From: Pyramidobacter sp. C12-8
GTDB taxonomy: Bacteria; Synergistota; Synergistia; Synergistales; Dethiosulfovibrionaceae
Assembly (NCBI RefSeq): GCF_002007215.1
Contig: NZ_MUHX01000011.1
Span: 1-64,000 of the forward strand
Length of the DNA stretch: 64,000 bases
Direction of reading: 5' to 3'
Below are positions 24,155-31,080 of this stretch, one piece after another. The position numbers and the translations under genes were made by a program. Under the pieces are notes generated by a model. That model was not told the DNA's origin. It worked only from the letters and a program-made list of their open reading frames with translations, and searched no databases. Every line of letters begins with the position of its first letter. Position 1 is the first letter of the stretch.

Positions 24155-25963
24155 ATGCGCAAGGGAATTTTCGATTCAAGCTGGAAGCGAACCGTCAAAT
24201 GCGGGCTGGTCGGCGAAGAGCTGGTCGGCAAGGAGATCGTGCTCAACGGCTGGGTCCGCAACCGCCGCGACCATGGCGGCGTGATTTTCATCGAGCTGTG
24301 GGACAAGTCGGGCAGCGTGCAGGTGGTCTTCACGCCGGAGGTGGACGTGCAGATGCACGCCGACGCCGGCGATCTGCGCAGCGAATACGTGATCGCCGTG
24401 AAAGGCAGAATGCGCGTGCGCCCCGACGGCATGATCAATCCCCACATGACGACCGGACGCTGGGAGATGGTGGCGAGCGACTTCCTGCTGCTGTCGGCGG
24501 CCGCGCCGATCCCTTTCGAGATCGGCGACGAGACGGAAAACGTCGACGAAAACCTGCGTCTCACCTACCGTTATCTCGACCTGCGCCGCGAGCGCATGCA
24601 GGACAACCTGCGCACGCGCCACGAGGTGGCTCAGTACACGCGCGCCTATCTGAACGGCCGCGATTTCACCGAGGTGGAAACGCCGATCCTGATGAAGTCT
24701 ACGCCCGAAGGCGCGCGCGACTACCTCGTGCCCAGCCGCGTCGCGCCCGGCTCGTTCTACGCGCTGCCCCAGTCGCCGCAGCTGTTCAAGCAGATCCTGA
24801 TGATCTCCGGCATGGACCGTTACTATCAGATCGCCAAATGCTTCCGCGACGAGGACCTGCGCGCCGACCGCCAGCCCGAGTTCACACAGGTCGATCTGGA
24901 GATGAGCTTCGTCACCGAAGAAGACGTGTACGATCTGCTCGAGGGCTACGTCGTCGGCCTGTGGAAGAAGATCCTCGGCGTCGAAATCGCGGCGCCCTTC
25001 CGCCGCCTCGGCTACGGCGAGGCGATGCGCCGCTTCGGCAGCGACAAGCCCGACCTGCGCATCCCCTTCGAAATTCACGACGTCACCGCCGCTTTCGAAA
25101 GCACGAGCTTCGCTCCCTTCCAGAATCTGATCGCCAACGGCGGCGTGATCCGCACGATCTCCGTGCCCGGCGGCGCCGCATGGTCGCGCAAGCAGTGCGA
25201 GGACGTCGCTGCCGCCGGCAATAAGCTGGGCGCGCCCGACGTGGCGTTTTTCCAGATCAAGGAAGGAACGCTCAAGGGGCCGCTGGCCAAATACCTCGAC
25301 GACGAACACAAGGCGCAGTTCCTCGAACTGGCGCAGGCGCAGGACGGCGACGCGATTTTCCTGATCGCCAACGTCGACGCCATGCTGGTCGCCACGGTGC
25401 TGGGGCAGCTTCGCCTCGACGTCGCCAGGGCGCACGGCCTGGTGCGAGAGGGCTGGGAGTTCCTCTGGGTCACCAACTTCCCGCTGCTGGAGTGGAGCCC
25501 CGATGAAAACCGCTGGGTGGCCACGCATCACCCGTTCACCCAGCCCAACCCCGAGGACCTGCCCTATCTCGAAAGCGATCCCGCGCGCTGCGGCTCGCGC
25601 ACCTACGATCTCGTGCTCAACGGCATCGAGGTGGGCGGCGGCTCGATCCGCATCCACGACGAAGAAGTGCAGGAAAAGGTCTTCAAGTGTCTGGCCTTCA
25701 CGCCCGAGGAGGCGCGAAGCCGTTTCGGCTTCTTCCTCGACGCGCTCAAGTACGGCACGCCGCCCCACGGCGGGCTGGCCATCGGTTTCGACCGCCTCTG
25801 CATGCTGCTGTGCGGCTGCAAGGGCATTCGCGAGGTGATGGCCTTCCCCAAGACGGCCAAGGCCCAGGACCTGATGGCCGGCGCGCCTTCGCCGGTCGAA
25901 TCGCTTCAGCTCGACGAGCTGGGCATCTCCGTGCGCGCGTTCGCCGCCGCAGCGAAAAAGTGA
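24155..25963 (+). CDS. aspS: Aspartyl-tRNA synthetase (bacterial type)
   Basis: 602 residues, the full bacterial form. The N-terminal OB-fold anticodon domain is at about 15-110 (NGWVRNRRDHGGVIFIEL). Class II motif 1, motif 2 (KCFRDEDLRADRQPEFTQVD) and motif 3 (GLAIGFDRLCMLL) surround the large GAD insertion (about 300-415). SPQLFKQ and the flexible loop are intact. The sequence does not show whether it also charges tRNA-Asn. A terminator follows, so it is probably the last gene of the hisS-aspS unit. Confidence 0.97.
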   Translation: MRKGIFDSSWKRTVKCGLVGEELVGKEIVLNGWVRNRRDHGGVIFIELWDKSGSVQVVFTPEVDVQMHADAGDLRSEYVIAVKGRMRVRPDGMINPHMTTGRWEMVASDFLLLSAAAPIPFEIGDETENVDENLRLTYRYLDLRRERMQDNLRTRHEVAQYTRAYLNGRDFTEVETPILMKSTPEGARDYLVPSRVAPGSFYALPQSPQLFKQILMISGMDRYYQIAKCFRDEDLRADRQPEFTQVDLEMSFVTEEDVYDLLEGYVVGLWKKILGVEIAAPFRRLGYGEAMRRFGSDKPDLRIPFEIHDVTAAFESTSFAPFQNLIANGGVIRTISVPGGAAWSRKQCEDVAAAGNKLGAPDVAFFQIKEGTLKGPLAKYLDDEHKAQFLELAQAQDGDAIFLIANVDAMLVATVLGQLRLDVARAHGLVREGWEFLWVTNFPLLEWSPDENRWVATHHPFTQPNPEDLPYLESDPARCGSRTYDLVLNGIEVGGGSIRIHDEEVQEKVFKCLAFTPEEARSRFGFFLDALKYGTPPHGGLAIGFDRLCMLLCGCKGIREVMAFPKTAKAQDLMAGAPSPVESLQLDELGISVRAFAAAAKK

Positions 25964-25981
25964 TTTTCGCGAAAAACGTGA

Positions 25982-26020
25982 AACGCCGCGTCCCCCGTGA
26001 AAAGGACGCGGCGTTTTTTG
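25982..26020 (+). terminator. Intrinsic terminator of aspS
   Basis: AACGCCGCGTCC (25982-25993) pairs perfectly with 26004-26015, then TTTTT. Confidence 0.88.
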
Positions 26021-26107
26021 TGCGGCGGCGCGCGGTGTGTTAGAATCGTCTTGTTGCGAAGCGTCGGCGGATCCGGCGCGTAAAGATCGTCGAAAGGAGG
26101 TGAATGG

Positions 26108-28108
26108 ATGAACGAAAAAAACATGCCCAAGGAATTCTGGCAGCGCGCCGACAGCCTGCAGAAGCGCACCGGCTATCAGTTCCGCGATCCCGAGCTGCTG
26201 CGCCTGGCCTTCACGCAGCGCTCCGGCGCCGGCGGCCAGAGCCCGAGCATGAACAACGAACGCCTCGAATTCCTTGGCGACGCCGCCTTGGGGCTGCTGG
26301 TCGGCGAGGCACTCTACCAGGAATATCCCGAGGCCGACGAAGGCTTTATGACCATCGAGCGCTCCAAATTGGTCTGCGGCCGCAATCTCAGCGCCTGGGG
26401 CTACGAAGCCGGCTTCGACCGGATGCTGCGCGTGTGCGAGGGCGTGGAAGTTTCCGACGCCATGGTGGAAGACTCGGTCGAAGCCGTGGCCGGCGCCTTT
26501 TTTCTCGACGGCGGGCTGGACGCCGTGCGCGCGCTGCTGCAGAGCTTTGCCGACTACCCCGACCAGGGCGCGGGCTTCGATTCGCGCCGCCACCTCGAGC
26601 GCGACTGCTCGTACGAAAAGCTCGGCGCGCCGCGCTACAGCACGATGCGCCGCCGCGCCAACGGCAAGATCATCTTCGAGAGCACCGTCTCCCTCGACAA
26701 AGAGCCCTCGGGCACGGGCCTCGGCGCCGACCGCACCGAGGCGGAGCGCAACGCCGCGCGCGACGCCATGTGCCGCCTCAGTCACGCTTCCGCCGAGGAA
26801 CAGAAAAAGCGCGCCGTCGTGCTGCGCGCCCGCTACCGCCGCGTCCTGCCCCGCCATGGGCAGCCACCCCGCGGCCGCAGTGCGGCCGGCGCGAGCGAGG
26901 CCGAAAACGCCGCCGCGGAAAAGCCCGTCCTCGTCCGCGACGGCGTGGAATACCGCATCGTCGCCAAAGACGGTCCCGAGCACAAGCCGGTGTTCACCGC
27001 CGCGGCGTTTCGAAACGGCATCCGCGTCGCCGAAGCCGGCGGCCCGTCGAAGAAGGACGCGCTGAAAGCCCTGGTCCGCGAGGTGGGCAAAGCCGCCGTC
27101 CGGCAGACGAAGCGCGGCGCCGACGCTTTCAGGGACCTGGAGCTTGCCGGCCTGAAAAACAGCCCCGAGCTGAAAGGCCGTCTGCAGACCTGCTGCGAGC
27201 GCCTCGGCATCGGCCAGCCCCATTACGTCGATCTGCCCTCGCCGGGCGGCAAAAGCCCGCTGTTCTTCGTGGAACTGCAGCTGAGCGGCGAACCGATCGT
27301 CAGCGGCAGCGGCCAGAGCAAGCGCGCCGCCGGCCAGGCCGCCGCCTGGAAAATGCTGCAGCTGCTCGCCGCCGACGCCCTCGGGGAAAGCGGGCGGCTG
27401 AACGCCGACCTGCCTCAGCTGCAGGCCCGTCTGGAGAGCGCCTTTCGCGCCGTCTGCGAGCGCGGCGGCGAGAAAGATCTGCGCGTCGAGATCGCCTCCG
27501 TTGCCGGGCAGGACGAAATGCGCCGCGCCCGCGTCTTTTTCGGCGACCGGTTCTGCACCGAAGTGCCCGGCCTCGGCGAAAATCAGGCCCGCCTGCTGGC
27601 CCTGTTCAGGGCCGTCACGCAGACCCGGCGCTGGAAGGACGTGCTGCGCGAGCTGAAGCTGAGCGCGCCTGCCGGCATGTCGCCGCAGAACGTCCGTCCC
27701 GACCTGCTGCTGGAAGAGCGTCTGAAAAGCTCGCGCCGCGGCCCCGCCGAGATCCTGTCGCTGCGCGCCGGCGGCAGCGAAGACCTGCGCCTGTACCGCA
27801 CCGGCCTGTTCGTCAAGGGCGATCTGGCCGCCTGCATGACCGCTCCCGGCAAGAAAATCGCCGAGCAGGCGCTGGCGTTGCTGCTGCTTGACCGCGCCGC
27901 GCGCGAAAGCGCGCTCGTGCCGCCGCTCAAAAAAGAAGCCCCCGCCGCCCGTACCGCGCCGAGCGCCCCGCACGAGCGCCGCAAGCCGCGCCGCCGCGCG
28001 CCGGTCGCCCCTCTGCCTTTGCCCGAAGCGCCCCAGCCGAAAGTCACGCTCAAACAGCGCTTCGGCAGCTGGCTGCGCCGCATGGGCGACCTGTACACGC
28101 AATCGTGA
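26108..28108 (+). CDS. rnc: Giant RNase III with several dsRNA-binding modules
   Basis: 666 residues, against about 220-250 for normal bacterial RNase III. Residues 10-150 are a complete catalytic domain: signature NERLEFLGDAAL with Glu54 and Asp58, and EDSVEAVAGAFFLDGG with Asp122 and Glu125. A first dsRNA-binding domain (dsRBD), weakly conserved, covers about 162-224. A second dsRBD-like unit is at about 279-327 (VEYRIVAKDGPEHKPVF, GGPSKKDALKAL). A third, the best, is at about 353-421 (ELKGRLQTCCERLGIGQPHY, SGSGQSKRAAGQAAAWKML). A fourth possible unit lies at about 435-510. The tail after 600 is basic and Pro/Ala-rich. It should cut dsRNA; the extra modules suggest long or unusual substrates (inference). 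AGGAGG precedes the ATG. Confidence 0.88.
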   Translation: MNEKNMPKEFWQRADSLQKRTGYQFRDPELLRLAFTQRSGAGGQSPSMNNERLEFLGDAALGLLVGEALYQEYPEADEGFMTIERSKLVCGRNLSAWGYEAGFDRMLRVCEGVEVSDAMVEDSVEAVAGAFFLDGGLDAVRALLQSFADYPDQGAGFDSRRHLERDCSYEKLGAPRYSTMRRRANGKIIFESTVSLDKEPSGTGLGADRTEAERNAARDAMCRLSHASAEEQKKRAVVLRARYRRVLPRHGQPPRGRSAAGASEAENAAAEKPVLVRDGVEYRIVAKDGPEHKPVFTAAAFRNGIRVAEAGGPSKKDALKALVREVGKAAVRQTKRGADAFRDLELAGLKNSPELKGRLQTCCERLGIGQPHYVDLPSPGGKSPLFFVELQLSGEPIVSGSGQSKRAAGQAAAWKMLQLLAADALGESGRLNADLPQLQARLESAFRAVCERGGEKDLRVEIASVAGQDEMRRARVFFGDRFCTEVPGLGENQARLLALFRAVTQTRRWKDVLRELKLSAPAGMSPQNVRPDLLLEERLKSSRRGPAEILSLRAGGSEDLRLYRTGLFVKGDLAACMTAPGKKIAEQALALLLLDRAARESALVPPLKKEAPAARTAPSAPHERRKPRRRAPVAPLPLPEAPQPKVTLKQRFGSWLRRMGDLYTQS

Positions 28109-28156: not shown

Positions 28157-28211
28157 AAAGAAAGGCCGGCCCGCGATGAAATTTCACTTCATCGCGGGCC
28201 GGCCTTTCTTT
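28157..28211. terminator. Bidirectional terminator, 24-bp perfect stem
   Basis: 28157-28180 and 28188-28211 are perfect inverted repeats with a 7-base loop, between the convergent RNase III and TMEM43-like genes. Both ends carry an A/T-rich tract. Confidence 0.88.
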
Positions 28212-28237: not shown

Positions 28238-28999
28238 TCAGCCGCGGCGGAACGTGGCGACGCCCGCGGCGAGGAGCAGCGCGGCGATGACTGCGCCGGT
28301 CGCAAGCCCCATGACGCCGGATTCTTCGCTGTCTTTCAGCACTTCCTCACGGCTGAGGATGCCTTCCAGAACGCACGGCGCCTGATCGGGCGCGGGATGG
28401 AGCGCGCCGTCCTTCTGAACGGCTTTCACCGTGACCTGGCGACCGCCGAGGTCGGAGATGCGGTAGGAGAAGCGCAGCGCGCCGCGCACGTTGCCCTTGG
28501 TGTGCGACAGATAGCGCTCGTTGCCGAGGAGCTTGCCGTACGTTACCAGTCCGGCGCGCGCGAGTTCCCCGCCGTCGAACTCCCGGCAGAACGCCGGCGT
28601 CGGCAGGGTCCTGAGCAGTTCCGGCGCCAGGACGAAGGCGCCGAGCTTGGCTTCGCCGACGAGCGTGCGGCTGCCCAGCGCTCCGGAATAGATTTTCTTG
28701 CACTCGTATTTGTTTTTGCCGTCCGTACCGACTCTTTCGTAACGTTCGGTCAGGCGCTCGGTCTTGGGCGAGCGCAGCGTGACGTTCAGCTCTTCGTCCA
28801 CCGCCGGCGCGGTCATCTCCAGAACGCCGCCGCACACGACCAGGCGGCCTTCGTTTTCCGGCAGGACGGCCGGCTCGCCGAGGAACGCGGCGGCGGCCAG
28901 CTGTTCCTGCGCTTTCGGCATGTCGTTATGCATCTTCCAGACGAGAGCGCCCGTTCCGATTCCCAGCAGGACCAAAACGGCGCCGATGATTTTCTTCAT
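28238..28999 (-). CDS. TMEM43-like membrane protein
   Basis: 253 residues. An N-terminal membrane helix (residues 4-21) and a C-terminal one (about 228-249) flank a large soluble domain. The segment NEGRLVVCGGVLEMTAPAVDEEL and the following TERYERV match the pattern of the TMEM43 family, whose bacterial members have no known role. The soluble part would lie outside the membrane. I start at the ATG at 28999 (GGAGGA site) rather than in-frame codons further upstream. Single-gene unit. Confidence 0.65.
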   Translation of the reverse strand: MKKIIGAVLVLLGIGTGALVWKMHNDMPKAQEQLAAAAFLGEPAVLPENEGRLVVCGGVLEMTAPAVDEELNVTLRSPKTERLTERYERVGTDGKNKYECKKIYSGALGSRTLVGEAKLGAFVLAPELLRTLPTPAFCREFDGGELARAGLVTYGKLLGNERYLSHTKGNVRGALRFSYRISDLGGRQVTVKAVQKDGALHPAPDQAPCVLEGILSREEVLKDSEESGVMGLATGAVIAALLLAAGVATFRRG

Positions 29000-29262
29000 G
29001 AAGCTTCCTCCTTCGTCGATGTTGTGATGGGGCCGGCGTTTCGAAAAAACGATTGTAGTGTAGCAGAAACATACCGGCCGGTCATCGCCCAAAGGGGTGA
29101 AGCGGCGCCGGCCGCGGGCGGATGGGCAAGCTCGTTTTTCGCGCGGCGCTGCGAAGGCGCCGCCGTTTTTATGGTATTATGAACGAAGATCGGCTATAAT
29201 TTTCGAACGATCGTGTGATTGCGGGCTGAGTGTTGCGGTCCGAACAGAGGAGGAATTTCATC

Positions 29263-31080
29263 ATGCACGTGTTCGCTTTTTTGCTGGCGGCCGCCGGAGC
29301 GGCGCTGTCCCTGTGTTACAGCGGCTGTCTCGCCATGATCATGGAAAGCGGTTTTGAGCTTGGCTGGCTGAAGGACTTCGCTTCGCTCGATCCCAAGTCG
29401 ATGTGCGTCGTCGCTTCTTCCGCTCTGGCGGTGCTGGGGGCGTTGCTGGTCCTGTTCAGGAAAAAGCTTGCGGCGCTGCTGCTGTTCGCGGCGGCGGGGA
29501 TCTCTTTGTACTGCGAGTTCAGGCTGAAAATCGTCTATCCCTACGTTCGCGCTTCGGCGGTGCTGTTCGCGGCGGCCGCACTGATGGGCATGAAGGTCCG
29601 CGGCGCGGAGGACGAATACGGAGACGAGGAATATGTCGGCAAGGAGCCGGAAATGGCCGATCCCGCTCCGGCGACGGCGTTTGACCGCGAAGTGAAAGAT
29701 GAGCTCGCCGCGGCGGAGGATGGAATGCCGGCCCCGAAGGCGGGCTGTTCGCGCCTCTGGGGGTTCCTGCTGGCGTTGGCGGCGGCAGGTTATACGCTCT
29801 GGCAGAGCGGCATGTGGCCGGTCGTGCAGGCGCACTTCGTCGATCTCGAATGGTATAAGAATCTTCCCTCGCTCGACGCCAAATTGTTAAGCGCGCTTGC
29901 CGCGGCGGCTCTGGCCTTGTTGGGCGGCCTGCTGGCGCTGGCGAAGCGTGCCGGCGCTACGCTGTTTTTGACCGTTGCGGCCGTGGTCTGCGCGGTGGCC
30001 CAGCTTCACTGGGACGTCTGGTTCCCCGCGTCCTGGGGGGCTTTTGTCCTCTGCCTTGTCGCCGGCGCGGTTTCCTGGCCCGGTGCGGCGGTGGACGCGG
30101 CCCGGGCGGGACGCCGTTACACGTCGGCCTATGTTTTCGCCTTTATTTTCGCGCTGGCGGCTGCGGCTATTTCGCTTTATCAGAGCGGGGCGTGCCGCGT
30201 TCTTGGCGAAAAGTTCGGCGGCGGTTTCTGCCTGGCCGCGCTGGGCGATCTGGACGAGAAGACGCTGTGCGCCGCGGTGACGGCGGCGCTTGGCCTTGCG
30301 GGCGGCCTGCTGGCGCTCTGCGGCCTGCGCTTTTCCACCTGGCTGCTGCTGGCGGCGATGTTCGTCTCGCTGGGGGGCGAACTGATCTGGCCTGAGTATT
30401 ACGCGTTCTCATGGATCGCGCTGCTGCTGTACGCGCTCTCCGCGCTGCTGAGCAGCGCGCTGGTGAGGGCCGGTGAGGAAACGCCCGTGAAGAAACTGCC
30501 GCTCTCCGTCGCCGTGATCGCCATGATGGCGGCGGCCGGAGCCGGCGGCGCCGCCGTGTGGTATTACGACAAGGGCGTGATGGCGGAGAGGTTCCGCGAC
30601 GCCCGTGCCAACGATCCCGCCTATCAGCAGATCGCCGAAGAGGTGAAAGCGAAGGACGCGAGGATCGCCGAAACGGACGGCAAGGTGCGGGAGCAGATGG
30701 GGCTCGTGGCCGAGCGCGAGCAGAAGATCGGCGAGCTGACGGCGGTCAGTGCCGCCAAGGACGAAGAGATCAGGAAACTGACCGCTCAAAGCGCCGCGCG
30801 CGACGAACGGATCGCGGCGCTGAACGCCCGGCTTGAGCGGGCCAAGACGGAGCTGGCCGCGGCGCAAGCCGAGTCGAGACGGAAGTTCGTCTACCTGCGC
30901 GGCAGCAACAACGTGCGCGACGTGCCGAACGCCGACAAAGGGTCCAAAGTCATCGGCCGCCTCAGCAACGAAACGGCTGAAGTCGTCGGCTCGCAGGGCG
31001 GCTGGTATCAGGTGAAAGGCTCCTTCGGCGCCGGCTGGGTCTTCGGCAAAAACGCCGTGATGCTGGATCTGGGCAGATAA
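29263..31080 (+). CDS. Polytopic membrane protein with coiled coil and SH3 domain
   Basis: 605 residues, unknown family. Three repeats of about 120-130 residues each begin with a helix of type FAFxxALAAAxxSLYQSG, then a short loop, SLDxKxLxA, and two or three further helices (starting near residues 2, 165 and 290). After a last helix near 415 comes a charged coiled coil (about 440-545, KAKDARIAETDGKVREQMGL). The C-terminus is a bacterial SH3 domain (YLRGSNNVRDVPN, GGWYQVKGSFGAGWVFG). SH3 domains of this type often bind peptidoglycan. GGAGGA precedes the ATG at 29263; a terminator follows. Confidence 0.8.
   Translation: MHVFAFLLAAAGAALSLCYSGCLAMIMESGFELGWLKDFASLDPKSMCVVASSALAVLGALLVLFRKKLAALLLFAAAGISLYCEFRLKIVYPYVRASAVLFAAAALMGMKVRGAEDEYGDEEYVGKEPEMADPAPATAFDREVKDELAAAEDGMPAPKAGCSRLWGFLLALAAAGYTLWQSGMWPVVQAHFVDLEWYKNLPSLDAKLLSALAAAALALLGGLLALAKRAGATLFLTVAAVVCAVAQLHWDVWFPASWGAFVLCLVAGAVSWPGAAVDAARAGRRYTSAYVFAFIFALAAAAISLYQSGACRVLGEKFGGGFCLAALGDLDEKTLCAAVTAALGLAGGLLALCGLRFSTWLLLAAMFVSLGGELIWPEYYAFSWIALLLYALSALLSSALVRAGEETPVKKLPLSVAVIAMMAAAGAGGAAVWYYDKGVMAERFRDARANDPAYQQIAEEVKAKDARIAETDGKVREQMGLVAEREQKIGELTAVSAAKDEEIRKLTAQSAARDERIAALNARLERAKTELAAAQAESRRKFVYLRGSNNVRDVPNADKGSKVIGRLSNETAEVVGSQGGWYQVKGSFGAGWVFGKNAVMLDLGR

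Follow-up and report, generated by a model that had tools for sequence, protein, structure and literature searches.

A second, long RNase III in Pyramidobacter with up to five dsRBD-like modules behind a conserved catalytic domain

The window, a stretch of 64,000 nucleotides from Pyramidobacter sp. C12-8, encodes a genus-specific second RNase III of 666 amino acids (gene here termed rncL), in which a single complete catalytic domain is followed by three certain dsRNA-binding domains (dsRBDs, d1 to d3) and by two further modules that are probably of the same kind, d5 by its sequence and d4 by its fold alone. The first-pass annotation had described an RNase III of this length with three or four such modules; the structural part of that reading is supported and was understated, in that the multi-dsRBD character stands while the count was too cautious, the full-length model showing five units. 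The features of the locus and of the protein are as follows.

25981-26016, + strand: 16-pair terminator-like stem after aspS, with a T run following on the + strand
26036-26047, + strand: extended -10-like element, TGn-TAGAAT, before rncL (upstream-region alignment)
26094-26104, + strand: strong Shine-Dalgarno sequence AAAGGAGGTGA, its core AAGGAGGTGA conserved in five species
26108-28108, + strand: rncL
26141-26563, + strand: catalytic RNase III domain, residues 12-152 (Pfam PF14622/PF00636, alignment)
26576-26785, + strand: dsRBD 1, residues 157-226, at the canonical RNase III dsRBD position (hhalign, dsrm, fold, alignment)
26786-26920, + strand: predicted disordered basic linker, residues 226-271
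26930-27133, + strand: dsRBD 2, residues 275-342 (dsrm, hhalign, model, alignment)
27164-27373, + strand: dsRBD 3, residues 353-422, complete (dsrm, hhalign, model, alignment)
27398-27625, + strand: probable dsRBD-like module 4, residues 431-506 (fold, in two models)
27689-27907, + strand: probable dsRBD-like module 5, residues 528-600 (hhalign, full-length model)
28049-28105, + strand: conserved amphipathic C-terminal helix, residues 648-666, LKQRFxxWxxRxxxxYTxS (invariant columns, model helix)

The open reading frame starts with the ATG at 26108 and its stop ends at 28108, exactly as annotated, and the catalytic domain is complete, being recognized by Pfam at residues 27-145 (3e-17 and 2e-15) and by NCBIfam TIGR02191 with 177.5 bits (cut-off 166.25). 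The Pfam scan of the product returns one RNase III domain, three dsrm stretches, and no unrelated domain. rncL is under purifying selection (dN/dS 0.20 versus G117) and lies after aspS in every Pyramidobacter species with a readable junction; a sister genus, probably Dethiosulfovibrio, has different genes after aspS and no RNase III there. The possibility that rncL is a read-through or a high-GC open-frame artefact is ruled out by this synteny, by the purifying selection, and by start signals that are conserved across species. Upstream, the TG and the TAGAAT of the -10-like element are kept in five species, while an automatic consensus promoter scan, in which this element was not scored, returned no promoter. 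Because the terminator-like stem of aspS is followed by a conserved promoter-like element and a Shine-Dalgarno sequence, rncL is probably its own transcription unit. No Rfam elements were found near the gene.

Several other features surround rncL. Antisense to aspS and rncL runs an open frame of 1308 amino acids (24176-28102, - strand), whose codon-position GC of 0.87/0.46/0.69 marks it as a high-GC artefact that annotation pipelines could nevertheless call. A very strong bidirectional terminator-like stem of 20 pairs (28161-28207) separates rncL from a convergent gene for a 284-aa membrane-type protein of no clear family (28238-29092, - strand), beyond which lies a gene (29230-31080, + strand) whose 616-aa product contains hydrophobic repeats and a coiled stretch and matches bacterial SH3 weakly. 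A homologue of the latter also follows rncL in G119 and G120 (L038 4237-6144 and L041 10197-12146), while in L038 no copy of the membrane-type gene is seen in the interval that separates rncL from this SH3-like gene.

The suggestion that this enzyme is additional to an RNase III of normal size is borne out, as a normal rnc, coding for 231 amino acids, lies behind fabF in the C12-8 genome, and all six Pyramidobacter genomes contain exactly two RNase III domains, one in the normal rnc and one in the long form. The long form is present as a full-length gene or, in G116, as two pieces at contig ends, the assembly (L006/L042 and L043) breaking inside rncL so that residues from about 252 to 620 are missing. 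The survey of RNase III length across Synergistota that had been proposed placed the long form only in Pyramidobacter, with none in the other 182 of 188 genomes, and a contig scan with the full rncL protein, which reaches close relatives only, likewise gave matches only in this genus. No Mini-III was found in the six genomes. In the phylogeny, the long forms are monophyletic (100/100); the branch leading to them is long (2.36), and its placement beside the Pyramidobacter rnc is weak (52/79). A phage or plasmid origin was considered and rejected, since phage and plasmid matches extend no further than about residue 226 and there are none for the tail; a scan of viral contigs gave no matches. Elsewhere in the family, the single rnc of a sister genus (g3; L047, G115) has a divergent dsRBD with a dsrm E of 3.6e-6, compared with 1e-14 to 1e-19 in the remaining family.

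The catalytic domain carries E51, E54, D58, E78, D122, and E125, which are invariant in 21 of 21 aligned RNase III sequences, a set in which 16 canonical enzymes from Synergistota stand together with five long orthologues, of which one is partial. The conserved acids of the E. coli enzyme are E38, E41, D45, E65, D114, and E117 (PMC8708148), the correspondence being drawn by motif. Among the large parts of the protein, the strongest constraint falls on the catalytic domain (dN/dS 0.08-0.17), and between the two Pyramidobacter subclades its identity is 73-76%, against 66-69% for the housekeeping rnc. It is thus better conserved between species than the domain of the housekeeping enzyme, and the two measures together indicate that catalysis in rncL is being kept.

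The part of the protein that follows is basic, as the first-pass annotation had noted, with a net charge of +32 and a pI of 9.6. In an AlphaFold2 model of the full length, built on the 21-sequence alignment, it forms five alpha-beta-beta-beta-alpha units (d1 159-224, d2 275-342, d3 355-420, d4 435-505, and d5 531-598), the relative placement of the domains being unreliable (pTM 0.47). Long stretches with pLDDT below 50 are confined to residues 226-271 and 609-642, so that the C-terminal 400 residues are neither disordered nor one unrelated domain. The first helix of d2 is weak or absent in the model. Three modules pass as dsrm on their own in Pfam, with 18.1 bits for d1, 27.5 for d2, and 37.4 for d3 (residues 356-420), the third thus being the best match, as had been claimed. 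Profile comparison to the canonical Synergistota dsRBDs (hhalign) gave 59.0 for d3, 53.0 for d1, 41.7 for d2, 25.9 for d5, and 11.5 for d4, with a maximum in a column-shuffle control of 21.1 overall and 16.6 for d5 (100 shuffles). The d5 match spans 68 columns end to end and was reached by 0 of 100 shuffles; its alpha-beta-beta-beta-alpha fold, seen in the full-length model, is not confident in a separate model of residues 426-605 built on four sequences. For d4 there is no sequence signal above chance against these canonical domains, and its dsRBD fold appears again in the separate model with a pLDDT of about 90. Foldseek searches with the d4-d5 model point in the same direction, because many of the best matches are dsRBDs (TARBP2, PKR, Staufen, ADAR, Xlrbpa), each of them weak, with unrelated proteins mixed in and no E below 0.001.

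The modules differ in whether they retain the motifs by which dsRBDs contact RNA. In the alignment, d1 has lost both the GPxH loop and the KK motif, which are absent in every species seen, so this canonical dsRBD probably no longer recognizes RNA in the usual way. In the C12-8 protein, d2 has GPEHKPVF and SKKDAL, d3 has SKRAA, and d5 has GKK, the KK at its helix 2 being invariant in all orthologues aligned; d4 is free of dsRNA-contact motifs in every species seen. The array also varies between species: in G119 and G120 d2 is missing and the lysine motif of d3 is lost, leaving a contact motif in d5 only. Since d1 and d4 are motif-free and two species have lost d2 and the d3 lysines, the pattern favours a mixed role, in which some modules would bind duplexes and others would make protein-protein contacts, over a simple increase of dsRNA binding with the number of dsRBDs. 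At the very end of the protein, the amphipathic helix (648-664 in the model; hydrophobic moment 0.55-0.57, net charge +2/+3) is conserved, while the linker before it is not.

RNase III enzymes of class I cleave dsRNA as homodimers and leave 2-nt 3' overhangs. By analogy with such single-domain enzymes, and from the residues that it retains, the rncL product is best explained, with moderate confidence, as a catalytically active homodimer that is held by its array on extended RNA duplexes and on partners. In the proposed model, duplex binding would pass from d1 to the downstream modules with a KK/KR motif (d2, d3, and d5 in C12-8), and the dimer, carrying up to ten dsRBD folds, would cut dsRNA while remaining attached where duplexes are extended or clustered, as they are in sense-antisense pairs or in long hairpins. 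The motif-free d1 and d4 and the terminal helix would most likely serve self-association, partner binding, or membrane attachment. Because every one of the six genomes has kept its normal rnc, housekeeping jobs on rRNA could stay with that enzyme, leaving rncL free to specialize. The earlier suggestion of a role on long dsRNA or antisense pairs, or as an RNA-bound scaffold, is reasonable, yet it is complicated by the motif losses among the orthologues: in G119 and G120, tethering to a long duplex could not rest on d2 or d3, because the former is absent and the latter motif-free.

The leading rival holds that the rncL product is primarily an RNA-degradation platform, whose motif-free dsRBD folds and amphipathic helix would assemble and localize a decay complex, with cleavage as one activity. 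In other systems, the tail of RNase E acts as such a scaffold for RNA decay. The RNase E/G open frame of Pyramidobacter, at about 509-645 codons, is in line with the scaffold-less enzymes of Synergistetes, which have 495-547 amino acids (PMC3071783), and the absence of RNA-contact motifs from d1 and d4 (in some species also from d3), the disordered linkers of the model, and the conserved cationic helix would all suit a platform. However, Pyramidobacter also has RNase Y, an enzyme that is usually membrane-bound, no linear motif or partner was found for the rncL product, and the helix could instead serve dimer packing; a scaffold as the primary function is regarded as doubtful.

A further reading would make rncL an Argonaute-free bacterial counterpart of the budding-yeast Dicer plan, i.e. 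a dedicated long-dsRNA processor that evolved once in Pyramidobacter, next to the housekeeping RNase III, and in which up to five dsRBDs load dimers cooperatively on sense-antisense duplexes; this is considered unlikely. The Dcr1 enzymes of K. polysporus and N. castellii, like rncL, have a single RNase III domain and at least two dsRBDs in each chain (PMC7528652), and the rncL model gives a fold match to the Dcr1 structure 3rv0. In contrast to rncL, Dcr1 is eukaryotic, has an N-terminal domain and two dsRBDs, and feeds Argonaute. No Piwi domain is present in the six Pyramidobacter genomes, on which ground a role in RNA interference was rejected; tracrRNA processing for Cas9 was rejected as well, Cas9 not being found in the genus.

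It is less probable still that the long enzyme has a single specific precursor to mature, either rRNA or an abundant structured RNA, comparable to the processing of 23S rRNA by Mini-III in Firmicutes. Firmicutes and cyanobacteria are known to divide tasks between two RNase III-type enzymes (PMC10989914), Pyramidobacter lacks Mini-III, and a slowly evolving catalytic domain would fit a fixed substrate. Against this, the 23S rRNA of Pyramidobacter, located by its sarcin-ricin-loop pattern, has no intervening sequence when compared with sister genera, which removes such sequences as a substrate; the sister genera mature their rRNA without the long enzyme, and a short processing stem needs no large dsRBD array.

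A defensive function, in which the array would bind and destroy long dsRNA that stems from phages or arises by convergent transcription, is very unlikely. The preference of dsRBD arrays for long dsRNA, known in general from eukaryotic dsRBD proteins, and the lineage-restricted occurrence of rncL would speak for it, but neither the rncL product nor its four nearest neighbours have a PADLOC match, the tail has no phage or plasmid relatives, Argonaute and Cas9 are not found in the genus, and the gene evolves slowly at a stable chromosomal site behind aspS wherever this is readable, with a distribution that is not patchy. That the protein is a catalytically dead dsRNA-binding regulator, using the RNase III fold only for dimerization, is hardly credible, for although the a5-a6 loop and the THxS motif are altered (AFTQRS/AFVQRS in the alignment), all acidic metal ligands are invariant and no other large part of the protein is as constrained as the catalytic domain.

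With class I RNase III (rnc of E. coli, Aquifex, and Thermotoga), the rncL product shares the catalytic acids, the single RNase III domain, and a dsRBD directly behind it, although in rncL this dsRBD lacks GPxH and KK. It differs in length and module number, with 666 residues and up to five folds rather than about 220-250 residues and one dsRBD (PMC8708148), the degenerate d1 and the terminal helix being features of rncL. Mini-III has an RNase III domain without any dsRBD, and the Dicer and Drosha classes (III and IV) have two RNase III domains together with helicase/PAZ or RS regions, in contrast to the single domain here. A single RNase III domain combined with two dsRBDs has been called unusual in Arabidopsis RTL2 and Mucor R3B2 (PMC4395119); these act in eukaryotic RNA silencing, and R3B2 is without the canonical catalytic residues, whereas rncL retains all of the acids. 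Cyanobacteria and Firmicutes have additional RNase III paralogues and Mini-III, which resemble rncL as second RNase III-family genes beside a canonical one (PMC10989914), but they are described with one RNase III domain and one dsRBD or none. Fold matches to the rncL modules include TRBP, Loqs, R2D2, Staufen, and ADAR, which have no RNase III domain. In these proteins the dsRBDs stand in tandem, some binding RNA and others protein.

In the open-access literature that was searched, no paper on RNase III with Pyramidobacter and no description of a multi-dsRBD RNase III plan in bacteria was found, absence there being no proof. Bacterial RNase III is described with one catalytic domain and at most one dsRBD, there being none in Mini-III (PMC10989914; PMC8708148). 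A conserved array enzyme beside a retained rnc would demonstrate a bacterial capacity for building multi-module dsRNA processors, and rncL would offer a natural system for asking how an RNase III is affected by additional dsRBDs, a question that is testable, as cultured Pyramidobacter strains exist.
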